Source: Thalassobius sp. Cn5-15 (GTDB lineage Bacteria > Pseudomonadota > Alphaproteobacteria > Rhodobacterales > Rhodobacteraceae). Taken from it: a stretch of 64,000 bases of DNA. Below, piece by piece: positions 33,983 to 61,134 of this stretch. Location: contig NZ_JAKRGF010000001.1 of assembly GCF_022347685.1 (NCBI RefSeq), positions 868,001 to 932,000 on the forward strand. Reading direction: 5' to 3'. The notes under the pieces were generated by a model. The model was not told the origin of the DNA and made no database searches. It saw only the letters and a list, made by a program, of their open reading frames with translations. Each line of letters opens with the position of its first letter. Position 1 is the first letter of the stretch. A program made the translations under genes and the position numbers.

Positions 33983-36766
33983 TCAGCCGATGACACCGCG
34001 CATTTCAGTCATGGTGCGGCGGGTCAGATCCAGCAGGCTGGCCGACATCTGGTTACAGCTGGCAGCGTCACCGTCATCGGCAGAATGGGTCATGCCCTGC
34101 AACACCTCATGCACACGCCCCGCGCCGATCACAGCTGCACCGCCAGCGCAACGGTGTGCCTCTGCCCGTGCCGTGGCAAAATCAGAGCTGGCGATGGCGG
34201 CGTCATATTTCGGCAGCATTTCAACCGCGTCATTTTCAAACTGTGCCAGATAGCCGACGACCGACTCGCCCCCCAGCATGTCGATCAGACCGTCAAACAC
34301 TTCCTTATCAATCAGTTGTTCTGTCATGGTCTCTTCTTCTGTTGTCGTTTCTTCACTCTCTTCGATCACACCCAGCACAGCGACATCCGCAAATGCATCC
34401 TCCGCTTGTGATGCTGCGACGACGGGTTCAACCGCCTCGACTGGCGCCTCCGCGGCCACATTCTGCCCCTTCTCAATTGACACGATCGCGGGCGTTTCGA
34501 CCTTCGTCGCCATTCCCTCACAGGCGGATGCTGACGCCTTCGGAGCCATGCCCAAGTCCTCAAACAATGCGTCCAGTGTCGCCATGCGCAGTGGCTTGGT
34601 CAGTACACGGTCCATACCAGCGGCCAGAAACTCGCGCATGTGTTCGGGTTGCGAATGGGCGGTGACAGCAACAATCGGAGCCTCTCGACTTTCGCCCATA
34701 TGGCGTAACATGCGCGTGGCGCCGACACCGTCCAGTTTCGGCATCGAAATATCCATCAGGATCAGATCAAACGCCTGATCACGCCCGGCGGCGACCCCCT
34801 CCAGACCATCAACGGCCTGCACCACACGGTGGCCTTTCGTTTTCAGCATCTCCACCAGCATCTGGCGATTAATCTCATTGTCTTCGACAACCAGCACATC
34901 CAGCCCGCCATCGCTATCCTGTTGCAGCGCGTGACCGGTCAGCGGGGGGCTAGCGACATCCTCTGCCACCTTGTTCCAGCGCACGACCAGTGAGAAGCTG
35001 CTGCCCTGCCCCGGATGGCTTTCCACCTCGATCGAGGCGTTCAGCAAATCGGCAGAGTGTTTGGCGATCGACAAACCCAGACCGCTGCCAGAACTGAAGT
35101 GTGAATAGGAATCGCGAATGGTTTCAAAGTTGCGGAAGATTCTGTCCAAATCGACGGTTTCGATGCCAATGCCCGTATCCTCGACAACTGCGGTAAATTC
35201 AAACGCTTCGCCCATATCCAACGCCGAAAGCCGCGCCACAACACGCCCTTCGGAGGTAAATTTAACCGCATTGGATAGGAAGTTGTGCATGATCTGGCGG
35301 AACAGGATCGCCGAGCCGACAACCTGCAGCGTTTCCGGCAGCTGAGTTTCTAGCTGCAGCTCGTTTTTGTTCTGCACAGCGCGCGGGCGTGCGGCCTCAA
35401 CAATTTTGTGCAACTCCGCCACGGGGCAGAAGGGCGCAACTGCAATGGCCGTATTGGCCAAGGTATCAAGGCGCGTCAGCTCCAGAACGTTGTCCACCTG
35501 TTCTAGCGCATCATCGCCACTGCGTTCGATGATCGACACCAGTTCGCACTGACGGTCGTCCAAACGGGTGGTTTCACGCAGAAGATCAAGCGAGGCCAGA
35601 ACACCATTCAACGGCGTGCGCATCTCATGGCTCATCGAGGCGAGGAAGCGCGACTTTGCCCGTTCTGCCTGCAACGCCTCGTTGCGGGCCTGCATCAGGC
35701 TCAGTTCACGTTCGATCTGTTCCGTCATGTCTGACACAGCAATGATATAGGCGATATCGTCGCTGCCCCCCTCGGACGCAGCAAAACTGGTGTTGGCAGC
35801 AAAGACGGTGCCGTCGCGGCGGCGCGCGTTCAGCTCGATGCTGAAATCGGCCAGCGGGTCATCGCGGCCCGCCTTAAGGCTGCTGACAAACTCTTCAAAC
35901 TCAGTCCGGTCATTGGCAAAAAAATCCAACAACGACCGGCCTAGCGTTTCCTCTTCGCTATATCCAAACAGCGCTTCACCGGCGCGCCCCATGCCCACGA
36001 CGGTCAGGTCTTTCTGCACCAGAAAGATCGCGTCGCGCGATGCCTGCACGATTGACCGCATGTTGGCCACAGACTGTTTCAGCGCCTGACGCCGTTTGCG
36101 CAATGTCACCGCCATCAGCACGTTCACTGCCATCAAACCGGCAAAGAACAGCAACACCGCCATCCCGCTGCGATACATAGCCTGCAAACCCGATTGCAAC
36201 GTCGCCTCGCGGTCCTCAAACGATTGCACTTCGCTGCGCATCACCCCCTGTGCCAAGGCCTGACGCTGCTGCACCAGCGCGCTGACATCGCTGTGCAGCT
36301 GCTGCAGCTCTGCCGGTTGCAAATCCCTCTGCTGTTTCAGGCGAGCTGCGTAAGTGCTTACAAAAATCTTCTGGGCGCTCAGCAAAGCCGCCAGATCGCC
36401 CGACATATCAGCATCCGAAAACGCTGCTTGTGACAGCACTTCGGCACCGGCTACAACGTCAGAGAGATGTGCAAAGACGATCGCCTGAGCAGCGGCATCA
36501 CCAGCACCATGCGCGCCCAGTTGTTCCGATACCTGGGCGTTGCCCACAGCGACCAGCAGGCCTGCATAATCCAGATCCAATTGATCGGTCACCCAATGAT
36601 CGTAAACCTGACGCTGCTGACCTTCCCATAGGGTCTGACGCACTGCGCCGAGAAAGTTGTTAAACAGAAGGACTGAAACCAACATCGCGACAATCAGCCC
36701 GAACCAAATCGCCCAAAGCCCTCTTTGGCGCAGAGTGTCCAAACCGTCGTCTGTTTGTTTCAGCAT
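33983..36766 (-). CDS. Hybrid sensor histidine kinase with PAS, receiver and Hpt domains
   Basis: A 927-residue multistep phosphorelay kinase. TM1 17-39, periplasmic helical sensor 40-200, TM2 201-222, PAS about 235-350 (DAIFLVQKDLTVVGMGRAGEALFGYS), HisKA with His380 in SMSHEMRTPLNG, HATPase 480-600 (NFLSNAVKFT, DTGIGI, GSGLGLSIAK), receiver with Asp672 in LILMDISMPKLDG, a low-complexity Ala/Glu linker 745-815, and a C-terminal Hpt with His871 in AEAHRCAGGAA (an atypical motif; HxxKG is usual). The start is MLKQTDDG behind GGAAGG; a 65-codon upstream extension is unlikely. It is divergent from a LuxR-type regulator across 495 bases, probably its output partner, next to flagellar genes. Confidence 0.93.
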   Translation of the reverse strand: MLKQTDDGLDTLRQRGLWAIWFGLIVAMLVSVLLFNNFLGAVRQTLWEGQQRQVYDHWVTDQLDLDYAGLLVAVGNAQVSEQLGAHGAGDAAAQAIVFAHLSDVVAGAEVLSQAAFSDADMSGDLAALLSAQKIFVSTYAARLKQQRDLQPAELQQLHSDVSALVQQRQALAQGVMRSEVQSFEDREATLQSGLQAMYRSGMAVLLFFAGLMAVNVLMAVTLRKRRQALKQSVANMRSIVQASRDAIFLVQKDLTVVGMGRAGEALFGYSEEETLGRSLLDFFANDRTEFEEFVSSLKAGRDDPLADFSIELNARRRDGTVFAANTSFAASEGGSDDIAYIIAVSDMTEQIERELSLMQARNEALQAERAKSRFLASMSHEMRTPLNGVLASLDLLRETTRLDDRQCELVSIIERSGDDALEQVDNVLELTRLDTLANTAIAVAPFCPVAELHKIVEAARPRAVQNKNELQLETQLPETLQVVGSAILFRQIMHNFLSNAVKFTSEGRVVARLSALDMGEAFEFTAVVEDTGIGIETVDLDRIFRNFETIRDSYSHFSSGSGLGLSIAKHSADLLNASIEVESHPGQGSSFSLVVRWNKVAEDVASPPLTGHALQQDSDGGLDVLVVEDNEINRQMLVEMLKTKGHRVVQAVDGLEGVAAGRDQAFDLILMDISMPKLDGVGATRMLRHMGESREAPIVAVTAHSQPEHMREFLAAGMDRVLTKPLRMATLDALFEDLGMAPKASASACEGMATKVETPAIVSIEKGQNVAAEAPVEAVEPVVAASQAEDAFADVAVLGVIEESEETTTEEETMTEQLIDKEVFDGLIDMLGGESVVGYLAQFENDAVEMLPKYDAAIASSDFATARAEAHRCAGGAAVIGAGRVHEVLQGMTHSADDGDAASCNQMSASLLDLTRRTMTEMRGVIG

Positions 36767-37261
36767 TATGGCCTTCCGGCGTTCAACTACTACTTTACCC
36801 GTGGCCCGATTGGCGCACGGTCGGGCCTCTTCGATATAGCCGCACTGCCCGCGCGCGGTCATTCCTGCTCTGCACGGTCCAAGCCGTACGCCCGAGCCAT
36901 ATCCATGGCCGAGTACTTTGCAACTTCCAAGCCCGAAGTCGCAAGAACACAAAGTGTTCAACGCAACTAAGCCGGGCGTCTCGGCCCAGCCTCCTCGATA
37001 GTCCTGGCGGACAAATCACCGCCACCGGCCTGAACGTCACGACCAAGTCTGTACATAAGGGGTATCGCCCACCAATGCCGCTCACAATCCGCCCTTCCGT
37101 CTAGGCCTACATACTTTAGTATGGGGTTTTGCAGCTTGTTGCTTGTCTAAGGCGCGTCTTGTTGGTCTAATCGAAATTAAGGCTTAAGAAATATCTCCTT
37201 TGGTCGTCTTAAAAGCTGAGTAACCAGTAAACAGACATCCGAAGGTAAAAGAGGGACCAAC
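36767..37261. promoter_or_regulatory. Divergent control region, hybrid kinase / LuxR-type regulator
   Basis: 495 bases without a convincing gene. The key element is the palindrome CATACT-TT-AGTATG (37110-37123); related sequences stand upstream of rpoN and of the sigma-54 activator gene. A hairpin GCCCGA-N11-TCGGGC lies at 36804-36826, and TTAAGGCTTAA near 37175-37190. The regulator ribosome site is AGAGGGA. Confidence 0.5.
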
Positions 37262-37894
37262 ATGACCGACACTAGCGGCAAGATCCGCGTTCTGATCGCG
37301 GATGACCATGGAATGATCCTGGACGTTCTGTCCATGTTCCTGGGCACACAGCCCGATATGCATGTCACCACCACAACTGATCTGGACGGGGCTCTGTCAG
37401 CGATTACCAGCAATGGTGGTTATGATGTGGTACTGCTTGATTACAACATGCCCGGCATGAACGGCACACAGGGTCTGACCCGCGCTATTCAGCTGAACAA
37501 GAAAAACCCGGTCGCCATCCTGACCGGCACACCAACCAAACGTATTCTGGATGAATCGCTGGCCAAAGGGGCCGCAGGTCTGGTGCCCAAAACCATGCCA
37601 GCAAAGAGCCTCGCCATCGCGATCCGTTTTATGCATGTGGGTGAGACCTATGTACCTCTCGACCTGATGCGCGAGGAAGCGGCAGAAGCCGGTGAAGGCG
37701 TCGGCAAGCTGAGTGCACGCGAAAAGACCGTTCTGGAATGTCTGGGTGAAGGCAAACAGAACAAGGAAATCGCCAACTCGCTGCAGTTGTCGGAGGCGAC
37801 GATTAAAATGCACGTAAAATCCATCTGTAAAAAGCTGGGCGCCAACAACCGCACCCATGCGGTGATCACCGCCCGCGATCAGGGCCTGCTGTAA
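37262..37894 (+). CDS. LuxR/NarL-family response regulator
   Basis: A 210-residue two-domain regulator. Receiver: VLIADDHGMILDV, phospho-Asp60 in VVLLDYNMPGMNG, switch Thr in AILTGTP and Lys in VPKTM. HTH: LSAREKTVLECLGEGKQNKEIANSLQLSEATIKMHVKSI (quoted in parts: LSAREKTVL, NKEIANSLQLSEATIKMHV). It stands divergent from the hybrid kinase and is followed by a terminator, so it is monocistronic. Its location between the kinase and fliA suggests control of motility. DNA target may be the CATACTTT-type motif; that is inference. Confidence 0.93.
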   Translation: MTDTSGKIRVLIADDHGMILDVLSMFLGTQPDMHVTTTTDLDGALSAITSNGGYDVVLLDYNMPGMNGTQGLTRAIQLNKKNPVAILTGTPTKRILDESLAKGAAGLVPKTMPAKSLAIAIRFMHVGETYVPLDLMREEAAEAGEGVGKLSAREKTVLECLGEGKQNKEIANSLQLSEATIKMHVKSICKKLGANNRTHAVITARDQGLL

Positions 37895-50011: not shown

Positions 50012-51340
50012 TCAGCTTGCTTGCAACACGGCGTTACGGCGGCGCTGGAAGGACGACGGAATTTTCAGAATATCACGGTATTTCGCCACCGTGCGGCGCG
50101 CCAGATGGGTACCTTCGGAGGTGATGACCTTGGCAATCGCATCATCGCTGAGGGGGCGTGCGGGATCTTCATCCCTGACCAATTGTTGAATACGGTGACG
50201 CACGGCAGCGGCGCTTTCCCCCTCCTCGCCTTCTTCTTTGCGCAGCGAGGCAGAGAAAAGGTATTTCAGCGGGAAAGTGCCCTGCGGGGTCTGCATCAAC
50301 AGATCGGTGGTCACCCGGCTGACGGTGCTTTCATGCACGCCGATCGCCTCTGCCACATCCTTTAGCGTCATCGGGGTCAGACCTGCAGGCCCCTGCTCCA
50401 TAAACCCTGACTGACGGCGCAGAATTTCAGCGCCAACGGCCAGCGTGGTTTGGTTACGGTGTGCCACCGCACGACGCAGCCACAAAGCCACAGACAGGGT
50501 GTCGTTTACATAGTCGCCATGCGCTGGTTTCAGCTGCTGAGCCTTCTTTTCATTGACCAGAACACTGGGCAGCGTCGATTTGTTCAGGTCGACCATCCAG
50601 CCCTCTTCGCCTTTGGTGACGATCAGATCAGGGGCGCGCTGCGGCACCACAGGACCGTTAAAATCCGCGCCCGGTTTGGGGTTCAGGCTGCGCAACAGTT
50701 TCAGCGCCGGGCGCAGCTCGTCCATATCGCAATCACAGGCGCGCATCAGCGATTTCAGATCCGCGGCGGCCAGTTTTGGCAGATTGTCCAGAAGCGCGGC
50801 AAAGATCGGGGTCATCACCTCTTGATCAATCGCCTGCAGCTTCAGGCATTCTGCCAGCGAGCGGGCGAAAAGACCCGAAGGTTCAACCTGTTGCACACGG
50901 GTCAGCCATTCTTCGGCTTCCTCAGAGGTCAGACCGGTGCGCATGGCGATCACATCCAGCTCTTCACCCAACCAACCGCTTGGCTCCAGTGCTTCAAGAA
51001 AGGCGTCAGCAATCATACGGTCGCGCTGATCAGGGAACAGCATGTCGAATTGTGCCGACACATGTGCATAAAGGGAAAGGTCATGTTCTGCGATCCGGGC
51101 CAGAATATCGCCCTGATCAACCCCCGACCCGCCGCTGCGACTGCCAATACCGCGCATCGACTGCTGTTCGGCGCCGGGGCCGGGCTTTACGTCCACAAAG
51201 GGATTGTCTTCTGCTTCACTCTCAATAACCGAGGTCAGATCGACATTGCTGTACTGCAGCAGACAGATCGCTTTTTGCAGCTGCGCTGTCATGACGATCG
51301 ATTGACGCTGACCAAGGTGTTGTACTGTTGAAATTTGCAT
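50012..51340 (-). CDS. rpoN: RNA polymerase sigma-54 factor RpoN
   Basis: A 442-residue sigma-54. N-terminal region I is Gln-rich (SIVMTAQLQKAICLLQYSNVDL), followed by an acidic region II, the core-binding domain, the HTH (LKDVAEAIGVHESTVSRVTTDL) and the C-terminal RpoN box ARRTVAKYRDILKIPSS. The second of two close ATGs is chosen: AAGGAG is 6 bases upstream of it and touches the first. This copy is inside the flagellar cluster, near a sigma-54 activator and sigma-54 promoters, so it is probably a flagellum-dedicated RpoN as in Rhodobacter. Its leader forms a hairpin that covers the ribosome site. Confidence 0.95.
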   Translation of the reverse strand: MQISTVQHLGQRQSIVMTAQLQKAICLLQYSNVDLTSVIESEAEDNPFVDVKPGPGAEQQSMRGIGSRSGGSGVDQGDILARIAEHDLSLYAHVSAQFDMLFPDQRDRMIADAFLEALEPSGWLGEELDVIAMRTGLTSEEAEEWLTRVQQVEPSGLFARSLAECLKLQAIDQEVMTPIFAALLDNLPKLAAADLKSLMRACDCDMDELRPALKLLRSLNPKPGADFNGPVVPQRAPDLIVTKGEEGWMVDLNKSTLPSVLVNEKKAQQLKPAHGDYVNDTLSVALWLRRAVAHRNQTTLAVGAEILRRQSGFMEQGPAGLTPMTLKDVAEAIGVHESTVSRVTTDLLMQTPQGTFPLKYLFSASLRKEEGEEGESAAAVRHRIQQLVRDEDPARPLSDDAIAKVITSEGTHLARRTVAKYRDILKIPSSFQRRRNAVLQAS

Positions 51341-51421: not shown

Positions 51422-51437
51422 AACAGACGAAAGTATG
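51422..51437 (-). promoter_or_regulatory. CATACTTT-type motif upstream of rpoN
   Basis: Minus-strand CATACTTTCGTCTGTT matches CATACTTTGGTCTATG upstream of the sigma-54 activator gene in 13 of 16 positions and shares CATACTTT-N-GT with the palindrome at 37110. It stands 82 bases before the rpoN start. Confidence 0.5.
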
Positions 51438-51462
51438 GGTATTTAAGTCATTGAAAAACAAA

Positions 51463-51488
51463 GAAACCGGCGCTGAAACGCCGGTTTC
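51463..51488 (-). terminator. Terminator of fliC
   Basis: GAAACCGGCG-CTGAAA-CGCCGGTTTC; the minus-strand continuation TTTGTTTTTC gives the T-run. It lies 36 bases past the fliC stop. Confidence 0.9.
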
Positions 51489-51523
51489 CTGTCGGGCTGT
51501 CAGTTTCCTGACGCCATCCCTTA

Positions 51524-59902: not shown

Positions 59903-60973
59903 TCAGGCGTTTTTGTTGATCCCGTATTTCTTGATCTTCTCGATCAGTGTGGTGCGTTGCAGGCCCAAAGCCTGTGCGGCGCCAGTCACGTTGCCTTCGA
60001 CCTTTTTCAATGCCGCTTCGATCAGGCTGATTTCCAGATCCCGCAGGATCAGACGGATGTCGATCTGGCCAGTGTCTTCCAACATTTTCAACACCGCCGC
60101 CTGATCACCCCCCATGCCCATGCCGGGGGTCGCGCCAGCGCCCTGCCCGTCATTTTCACTGAGCAAGAGGAAGTTATCCACCTCTGCCGCGTGCAGCATG
60201 CGACCGGGGAACATCACGATCGCACGGTCAACGACGTTGCGCAGTTCACGAATGTTGCCAGGCCAGCTGTGGCCCTGCAGGCGTTCAATTGCGTCCATGG
60301 CAAAATGCGGCAGGTTGGCCTGCGGGTTCTGGCGGGTGTGGTCTTTCAGCATCCGGTCGATCAGTTCGGGGATCTCTTCCAGACGTTCGGACAACGACGG
60401 AACAGGCACTGGCAGCACGTTGATACGATAGTAAAGGTCAGCGCGGAATTTGCCCTCGGCCACTGCTTCGGTCAAATGGCGGTGGGTCGCGGTGATCAGG
60501 CGGAAGTTTACTGCGATATGTTCGCGACCGCCGACACGCTGGATTTCTCGCGCCTCTAGAACACGCAGAAGTTTTGCCTGCAATGCCAGTGGCATATCGC
60601 CGATTTCATCCAGAAACAGCGTGCCGCCATCAGCCATTTCGATCAGGCCGACGCGTTGTTCATCGGCGCCCGTAAAAGCGCCCTTTTCGTAGCCAAACAG
60701 TTCGGATTCCAGCAACTCCCCCGGAATGGCTGCACAGTTCACCGCCACCAGTTTACCCGCCCGCCCCGAGGCCGCATGAATAGCCGTTGCAGCGCGCTCC
60801 TTACCGGATCCCGTGTCACCAGACAGCATCACCGGCGCGTCACTGGGCGCCACGGCGGTCAGCATCTGTTTCATCCGCCGCGTCGCAGGGGCAGAACCGA
60901 CAACATGCGCGTCGACCTCATAGAGGATCGGCGCTTCGGCATCGAAAAACAGGTTACTGTACTGGTTGGTCAT
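59903..60973 (-). CDS. Sigma-54 transcriptional activator (FleQ/FleT-like, no receiver domain)
   Basis: 356 residues: a short N-terminus, an AAA+ domain about 25-255 and a Fis-type HTH. Walker [10 protein letters not shown], the sigma-54 contact loop GAFTGA, Walker [13 protein letters not shown], sensor [16 protein letters not shown] are all present. The HTH ([32 protein letters not shown], in parts) is like FleQ (RRTTLVEKMRKYG). The N-terminal FleQ or receiver domain is missing, as in FleT of Rhodobacter. It should drive the sigma-54 promoters at flhA, flgP and motA. A terminator follows. Confidence 0.92.
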
Positions 60974-61100: not shown

Positions 61101-61134
61101 CATACTTTGGTCTATGTTAATTCGGTCTATACTG
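61101..61134. promoter_or_regulatory. CATACTTT-type motif upstream of the sigma-54 activator
   Basis: CATACTTTGGTCTATG (61101-61116) followed by a second GGTCTAT (61124-61130). It resembles the elements upstream of rpoN and between the hybrid kinase and LuxR-type regulator. It is about 130 bases upstream of the activator start. The window 60974-61138 otherwise contains paired GC-rich words (CCGACGTACCGCCACGTATCGGACGG). Confidence 0.5.

Follow-up and report, generated by a model that had tools for sequence, protein, structure and literature searches.

A 14-bp palindrome of the form CATMC-N4-GKATG is read here, with a probability of about 0.7, as the putative operator of a LuxR-type response regulator encoded at 37262 of the window (the whole stretch of 64,000 nucleotides that was analysed), and the pair formed by this regulator and a divergently encoded hybrid sensor kinase would act above the flagellar regulators FleQ, RpoN and FleT. 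The initial annotation had named the regulator as the natural reader of a motif shared by three flagellar regulatory regions, with a phosphorelay above RpoN and its activator. Regarding the reader, the comparison of sequences supports the proposal, in that the motif follows the helix type of the regulator and is enriched around homologues lacking flagellar neighbours; regarding the phosphorelay, the same kind of comparison favours it, with the operator conserved at the kinase/regulator locus and recurring before fleQ. Taken as a whole, the reading is supported by the ranking of the sites with a matrix built from other genera, by conservation across genera, by the association with helix type and by enrichment in secretion loci.

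In the proposed circuit, the hybrid kinase (HisKA, receiver and Hpt-like domain) would phosphorylate the regulator, a dimer of which would bind the palindrome in the region shared by the two genes, amounting to autoregulation, and would also bind before rpoN, before the gene of the FleQ-type master activator and before that of a FleT-type co-activator outside the window. The pair would set the level of the sigma-54 machinery driving a flagellar cluster of the Cereibacter Fla1 type. What the alignments and scans give is the sites, their conservation and their association with the regulator family; that the regulator activates its targets is a guess, leaning somewhat towards activation, made because the sites at rpoN and fleQ lie upstream of other conserved stretches, possibly promoters. 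Conservation of the palindrome in some marine and freshwater bacteria suggests a pair that ranks higher than the known head of the flagellar hierarchy. In the literature consulted, which is mostly open-access and includes the accessible part of PMC5588039, no kinase/regulator pair above FleQ is named, and the accessible portions of the C. sphaeroides literature yielded nothing on the control of fleQ or rpoN2 themselves. With a conserved operator and a candidate reader in the same cluster, this gap would come down to a single gene and a single 14-bp site.

The kinase/regulator pair and the three sites of the window

The kinase contains the key motifs SHEMRTP, NFLSNA, GSGLGL and DISMP, and its Hpt-like domain scores 24.4-24.6 bits against a Pfam cut-off of 24.6, with AHRCAGG present and no match to HxxKG or HxxRG. 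In the regulator, the predicted phospho-acceptor is Asp60, and Asp is found at this position in all 80 aligned homologues. The pair is adjoined by a FliA-type sigma factor gene, an FlhF-like gene and flhA, and both rpoN and the gene of a FleQ-type activator with a DNA-binding domain lie inside the flagellar cluster (Table 1); a Pfam search of this activator found no receiver domain.

Table 1. Coordinates of the genes, putative operators and hairpin in the window
Feature	Position	Strand	Description
Hybrid sensor kinase	33983..36766	-	PAS, HisKA, HATPase_c, receiver and C-terminal Hpt-like domain (Pfam); divergent from regulator
Putative operator A	37110..37123	.	Palindrome CATACT-TT-AGTATG (CATACTTTAGTATG) between kinase and regulator genes
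LuxR/NarL (NarL/FixJ)-type response regulator	37262..37894	+	Pfam Response_reg and GerE, above cut-offs
rpoN (sigma-54)	50012..51340	-	Pfam, TIGR02395; ATG at about 51340, start placed by alignment
Putative operator B, CATACTTTCGTCTG	51424..51437	-	84 nt upstream of rpoN ATG
Terminator-like hairpin	51461..51490	-	Behind flagellin gene; separates flagellin gene from operator B and rpoN
FleQ-type sigma-54 activator	59903..60973	-	AAA+ and Fis-type HTH (Pfam)
Putative operator C, CATACTTTGGTCTA	61101..61114	+	128 nt upstream of FleQ-type activator ATG

All three motif strings described by the initial annotation are present in the window, and the 16-mers before rpoN and the activator agree by eye in 13 of 16 bases. 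The exact pattern CATACTTTNGTNTR, which was fitted to these three sites, has three matches in the 3.5 Mb genome, namely operators A, B and C and no others, and across nine genomes of the genus it gives 16 matches versus 3 in the control. With one mismatch allowed, the genome holds 9 matches and the backward control 19. Genome-wide, the motif thus stands above random as an exact pattern and shows no enrichment once a mismatch is admitted. Within the window, 5 matches with up to three mismatches to the 14-mer were counted (the perfect site scoring once per strand); the shuffles average 1.40, and 1 of 100 reaches 5. This excess is modest. The three-site motif is real. A similar string at the start codon of fleQ (60971) was discarded as it is not conserved in Thalassovita alignments.

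Since the pattern was fitted to its own sites, a weight matrix from other genera provides a better test. Its input consists of 19 14-mers from kinase/regulator intergenic palindromes of genera other than that of the window, obtained from 21 loci chosen among those showing a likely site, after removal of L036 and L048 (3 mismatches). The genome-wide scans above used IUPAC patterns, and the matrix rankings cover 100 kb in the window's genome and 55 kb in genome G111. In the former, the matrix ranks 37110, 51424 and 61101 first to third (24.7, 15.7 and 12.8), followed by strings inside flgK (11.1), on the fleQ start codon (9.2) and before fleT (8.6). Resampled sequence is expected to give 0.7 matches per 100 kb at 12.7 or above and 6.5 at 8.5, so that the fleT score of 8.6 in the window's genome means nothing by itself. 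The regulator locus of G111 shares about 85% identity with Tabrizicola-like loci; in this genome the top three matches lie at the kinase/regulator locus (22.2), at fleQ (19.7) and at rpoN (15.7), the latter two being independent of the training sites. In G059, whose regulator locus is 94.7% identical to that of Cereibacter johrii, the region between kinase and regulator holds the second-best match (10.8), and the best (11.9) falls outside the set of compared genes. A scan of related genomes, as the initial annotation had suggested, therefore recovers matrix matches at the kinase/regulator locus, fleQ and rpoN in G111 and, with the same matrix, no rpoN site in G059.

Association of the palindrome with the regulator family

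In several genera, the palindrome is kept in the region that separates the divergent genes of kinase and regulator, and upstream of the regulator in Thalassovita its core can be followed through five genomes, in one of which it is damaged. Among 28 loci with a divergent kinase and a regulator at least 54.5% identical to that of the window, YATMC-N4-GKATR occurs exactly within 350 nt in 23, with the qualification that 19 of the 28 are training loci and that 5 of the other 9 are exact. Allowing one mismatch raises the count to 25 of 28, a figure that leaves out T. mediterranea (L010), where the string 26 nt before the start is not the true site and the true site is more mismatched; at L013 and L036 the kinase is divergent, yet neither locus offers a convincing site. 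The exact pattern was found in none of ten loci with regulators above the same identity threshold and no divergent kinase (eight with no kinase seen, two in tandem arrangement). Tandem loci were scanned only upstream of the regulator, and several carry sites before the kinase, so that low counts there do not mean absence.

The motif also follows the recognition-helix type of the regulator. When at most one mismatch is allowed, 24 of 28 KMHV-type regulators with a divergent kinase have CATMC-N4-GKATG, versus 0 of 12 KLHV-type regulators (Fisher 3e-7). Loci of the KLHV type tend to CTATNC-N4-GNATAG (two exact, eight with two mismatches, several of these near-identical, and two with three mismatches), and their regulators fall in a clade of 22 rows with support of 100/99. 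Paralogous regulators of Thalassovita (L146, L149, L151, L156 and L159) have different upstream palindromes, with a CTAT..ATAG look by eye.

A second association comes from regulator homologues in type I secretion loci (L049-L089), which contributed no training sites and beside which the comparison with window genes revealed no flagellar neighbour. Around them the matrix gives 58 matches at 12.7 or above versus 2 when reversed, and 28 versus 0 at 15.6, while at the plasmid locus L246 the reversed-matrix control itself scores up to 17.7. A further set, which includes the fleT locus L094, does not enter these counts. Across L010-L089, all 25 loci that match secretion-type genes of a Pseudosulfitobacter plasmid locus, queried with its glycosyltransferase, BamA-like, HlyD-like and type I secretion genes, carry at least one match of 12.7 or more.

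Proposed targets of the pair and alternative readers

At operator C, the AAAGTAT half is kept in all four aligned Thalassovita genomes. In the genus of G111, 10 of 16 fleQ genes have a match of at least 12.7, invariably 192-196 nt before the aligned start, and the remaining six score lower. Two Gemmobacter loci, L026 and L034, have matches between kinase and regulator as well as between the regulator and a FleQ-type gene (791 and 608 nt, respectively, before the match to that gene), and L026 has a further one 179 nt before fleT. For Cereibacter, a relaxed consensus, written after one of the five fleQ sites was seen, is exact in three of five (chance 0-0.013 each) and has one mismatch in two (chance about 0.16-0.17), and these sites are only suggestive as operator copies. 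The operator thus recurs before fleQ in Thalassovita, in the genus of G111 and in Gemmobacter loci, and more weakly in Cereibacter.

The cluster extends past the window to a second activator of the FleT type, in which a Pfam scan detected no HTH or other DNA-binding domain, ahead of fliE-fliF-fliG (FliE, FliF and FliG by Pfam). At fleT (G000:C9:957861, about 8861 in L168, and the homologous places in G001, G002, G003 and G007), each of five genomes has two motif copies; in G007 the distal one reaches a score of 19.8, and it is damaged in the window's genome, where the fleT site scores no more than background. Some 60-80 nt downstream of the conserved fleT site follows a GG-N10-GC stretch, likewise conserved, that looks like a sigma-54 promoter; promoter scans found no promoter of the sigma-70 type.

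The rpoN site is the weakest of the three. ATACTTT of operator B is kept in all four aligned Thalassovita genomes, with the second half degenerate in two (G001 and G003). In the genus of G111, a string near rpoN scores at least 11 in 8 of 15 genes, and the motif-like string seen there (L230-L236, L195) lies between the fliC stop codon and the fliC terminator and may therefore belong to the fliC 3' end. The rpoN gene of the cluster is the sole match in the window's genome (E 0.001), and likewise in three relatives, so that its control would touch every sigma-54 process. A separate rpoN copy, L247 (G004:C45:2215-3537), has one internal TAA stop and 60% identity to the rpoN of the window.

The main rival reading, which is disfavoured and unlikely, takes the motif as an upstream site of FleQ, bound through its Fis-type HTH, with fleQ, rpoN, fleT and the kinase/regulator locus as targets of FleQ feedback. 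FleQ does carry a DNA-binding domain (Pfam), a position 60-80 nt above the sigma-54-like promoter of fleT is a usual place for such an activator, and fleT depends on FleQ in C. sphaeroides (PMC11999139, in its accessible part). However, the best matches in the window's cluster stand at regulators (one inside flgK), not at other flagellar operons, and the motif changes with the helix type of a different protein, the regulator, around whose homologues it is enriched in type I secretion loci. The distribution of FleQ points the same way. At E 1e-72, 12 of the 198 genomes of the family, among them that of the window, have a FleQ-type match. A FleQ-type match in the absence of a close regulator paired with a divergent kinase was seen in nine other genomes of the family: five lack a regulator match at E 1e-50, two have a regulator beside which no kinase was seen, and two have only a 45% regulator (in G104 and G168, with flanks of 7-8 kb searched, a divergent pair with a 45% regulator is present). 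One of the nine is G047 (Donghicola), and the match in another, G023, is probably an NtrC-like protein. In eight of these nine there is no match of at least 12.7 in the 450 nt before the FleQ-type match, the exception being G097, which has no regulator match at E 1e-50 and yet a 16.4 match 384 nt before its fleQ-type match.

Similarly unlikely is a reading in which the motif is recognised by a third transcription factor, encoded at an unlinked place, that would control the kinase/regulator pair together with the flagellar regulators. The 37262 regulator has been assigned as reader by association, and such sites also accompany the genes of a further hybrid kinase at other places in Thalassovita, both of which would suit an unlinked factor; against it, the motif tracks the regulator family in two layouts (divergent and tandem) and two settings (flagellar and type I secretion), and differs with the helix type of the 37262-family regulator. 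Chance resemblance of three AT-rich intergenic strings, for which speak the modest in-window excess (1 of 100 shuffles as high), the lack of genome-wide excess at one mismatch and the unconserved look-alike at 60971, is very improbable given cross-genus conservation and is set aside, for operators A and C only, by the independent matrix ranking, the G111 scan, the fleQ sites in the genus of G111 and the reversed-matrix control; operator B, taken singly, may be a chance match.

As a further candidate, the quorum-sensing LuxR protein CerM has the site consensus TNT-N5-AAGACA-N2-T (PMC11655674, in its accessible part); by eye, AAGACA is absent from all three window sites, and CerM was rejected as the reader.

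Known systems, natural contrasts and secretion loci

The preferred reading, in which the 37262 regulator would bind the palindrome above FleQ, RpoN and FleT, has partial counterparts among known systems. BarA-UvrY and GacS-GacA follow the plan of a hybrid kinase with Hpt and a LuxR-type regulator, and the window pair, with its candidate Hpt domain, would share this layout; its NCBIfam matches include the BarA and UvrY/SirA/GacA models, far below their cut-offs. These systems act largely through small RNAs, whereas in the present case the palindromes immediately precede genes of flagellar regulators. As in ChrA, DesR, NarL, VraR and DevR/DosR, for which structures are solved, receiver and GerE domains cover nearly the full length of the regulator, and the NAC-N4-GTN centre of the palindrome is reminiscent of the DosR box; unlike in those systems, the half-site is CATAC/CATCC and the targets would be flagellar. 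The proposed circuit resembles alphaproteobacterial CckA-ChpT-CtrA in placing a hybrid-kinase phosphorelay atop a flagellar hierarchy and differs from it in regulator family; in C. sphaeroides, according to the accessible text of PMC7277832, CckA-ChpT-CtrA drives Fla2, not Fla1. Like the Fla1 system (FleQ/RpoN2/FleT) of Cereibacter (Rhodobacter) sphaeroides, the window's cluster has its own rpoN, a FleQ-type activator with a Fis HTH, a second activator with no detected DNA-binding domain before fliE-fliF-fliG, a FliA-type sigma factor and FlgM, a gene set called 'fla3-type' in the available portion of a 2025 Rhodobacterales census (PMC12363192). In the Fla1 hierarchy, FleQ stands at the top (PMC11999139 and PMC7277832, both as far as accessible), unlike here, where the kinase/regulator pair would stand above it.

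Natural contrasts are offered by close relatives. T. mediterranea CECT 5383 is scored as non-motile and T. gelatinovora CECT 4357 as motile (Table 4 in the accessible part of PMC5770400). The T. mediterranea regulator is identical to that of the window to a value that rounds to 100%, with one residue, K to E, differing in the HTH part compared, and its palindrome (L010:9849-9862) has one damaged half; the palindrome of T. gelatinovora is perfect. The T. mediterranea assembly gave no rpoN match and no close fleQ match, and since its contig breaks off inside the flagellar cluster, these genes may be lost from the assembly alone. In Donghicola (G047, which showed no difference from Donghicola mangrovi across 3.6 kb of compared sequence), the regulator and flagellar genes are present, no kinase match was found in the 16 kb examined and no palindrome at the kept regulator, which indicates that the circuit can be lost or rewired.

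Homologous kinase/regulator pairs with the same operator lie in type I secretion loci (L244, L246, L056, L061, L062 and others); the pair of L244 adjoins BapA_N proteins, and two BapA_N proteins are encoded in the Pseudosulfitobacter plasmid locus. It is possible, if rather doubtful, that one ancestral kinase/regulator/operator module split in Rhodobacterales into a 'swim' and a 'stick' branch with nearly the same 14-bp palindrome, the former with operators at rpoN, fleQ and fleT of the sigma-54 flagellum and the latter with operators in type I secretion, glycosyltransferase and some BapA-type adhesin loci. Should this be true and both branches occur in one genome, a shared operator could hard-wire a swim-or-stick decision by cross-recognition. 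That relatives carry the same operator in secretion and adhesin loci suggests one family of switches serving both motile and attached life.

Further copies and homologues were seen elsewhere. Outside the flagellar cluster, motif copies occur in G007, G002 and G003 (L131, L121 and L122; L213:2632-5658, L214:1756-4725), and in G007 and G003 the next gene encodes a hybrid kinase (HisKA, HATPase and receiver). In Gemmobacter nectariphilus, a second regulator homologue (L039:11901) is encoded on the opposite strand, and 138 nt from it lies a CATACTTAGGTATG site that scores 21.8. Finally, on plasmid pSC52_3 of Rhodobacteraceae bacterium SC52 (L245), a regulator homologue lies beside IS1247 copies that flank an annotated aminoglycoside phosphotransferase gene.
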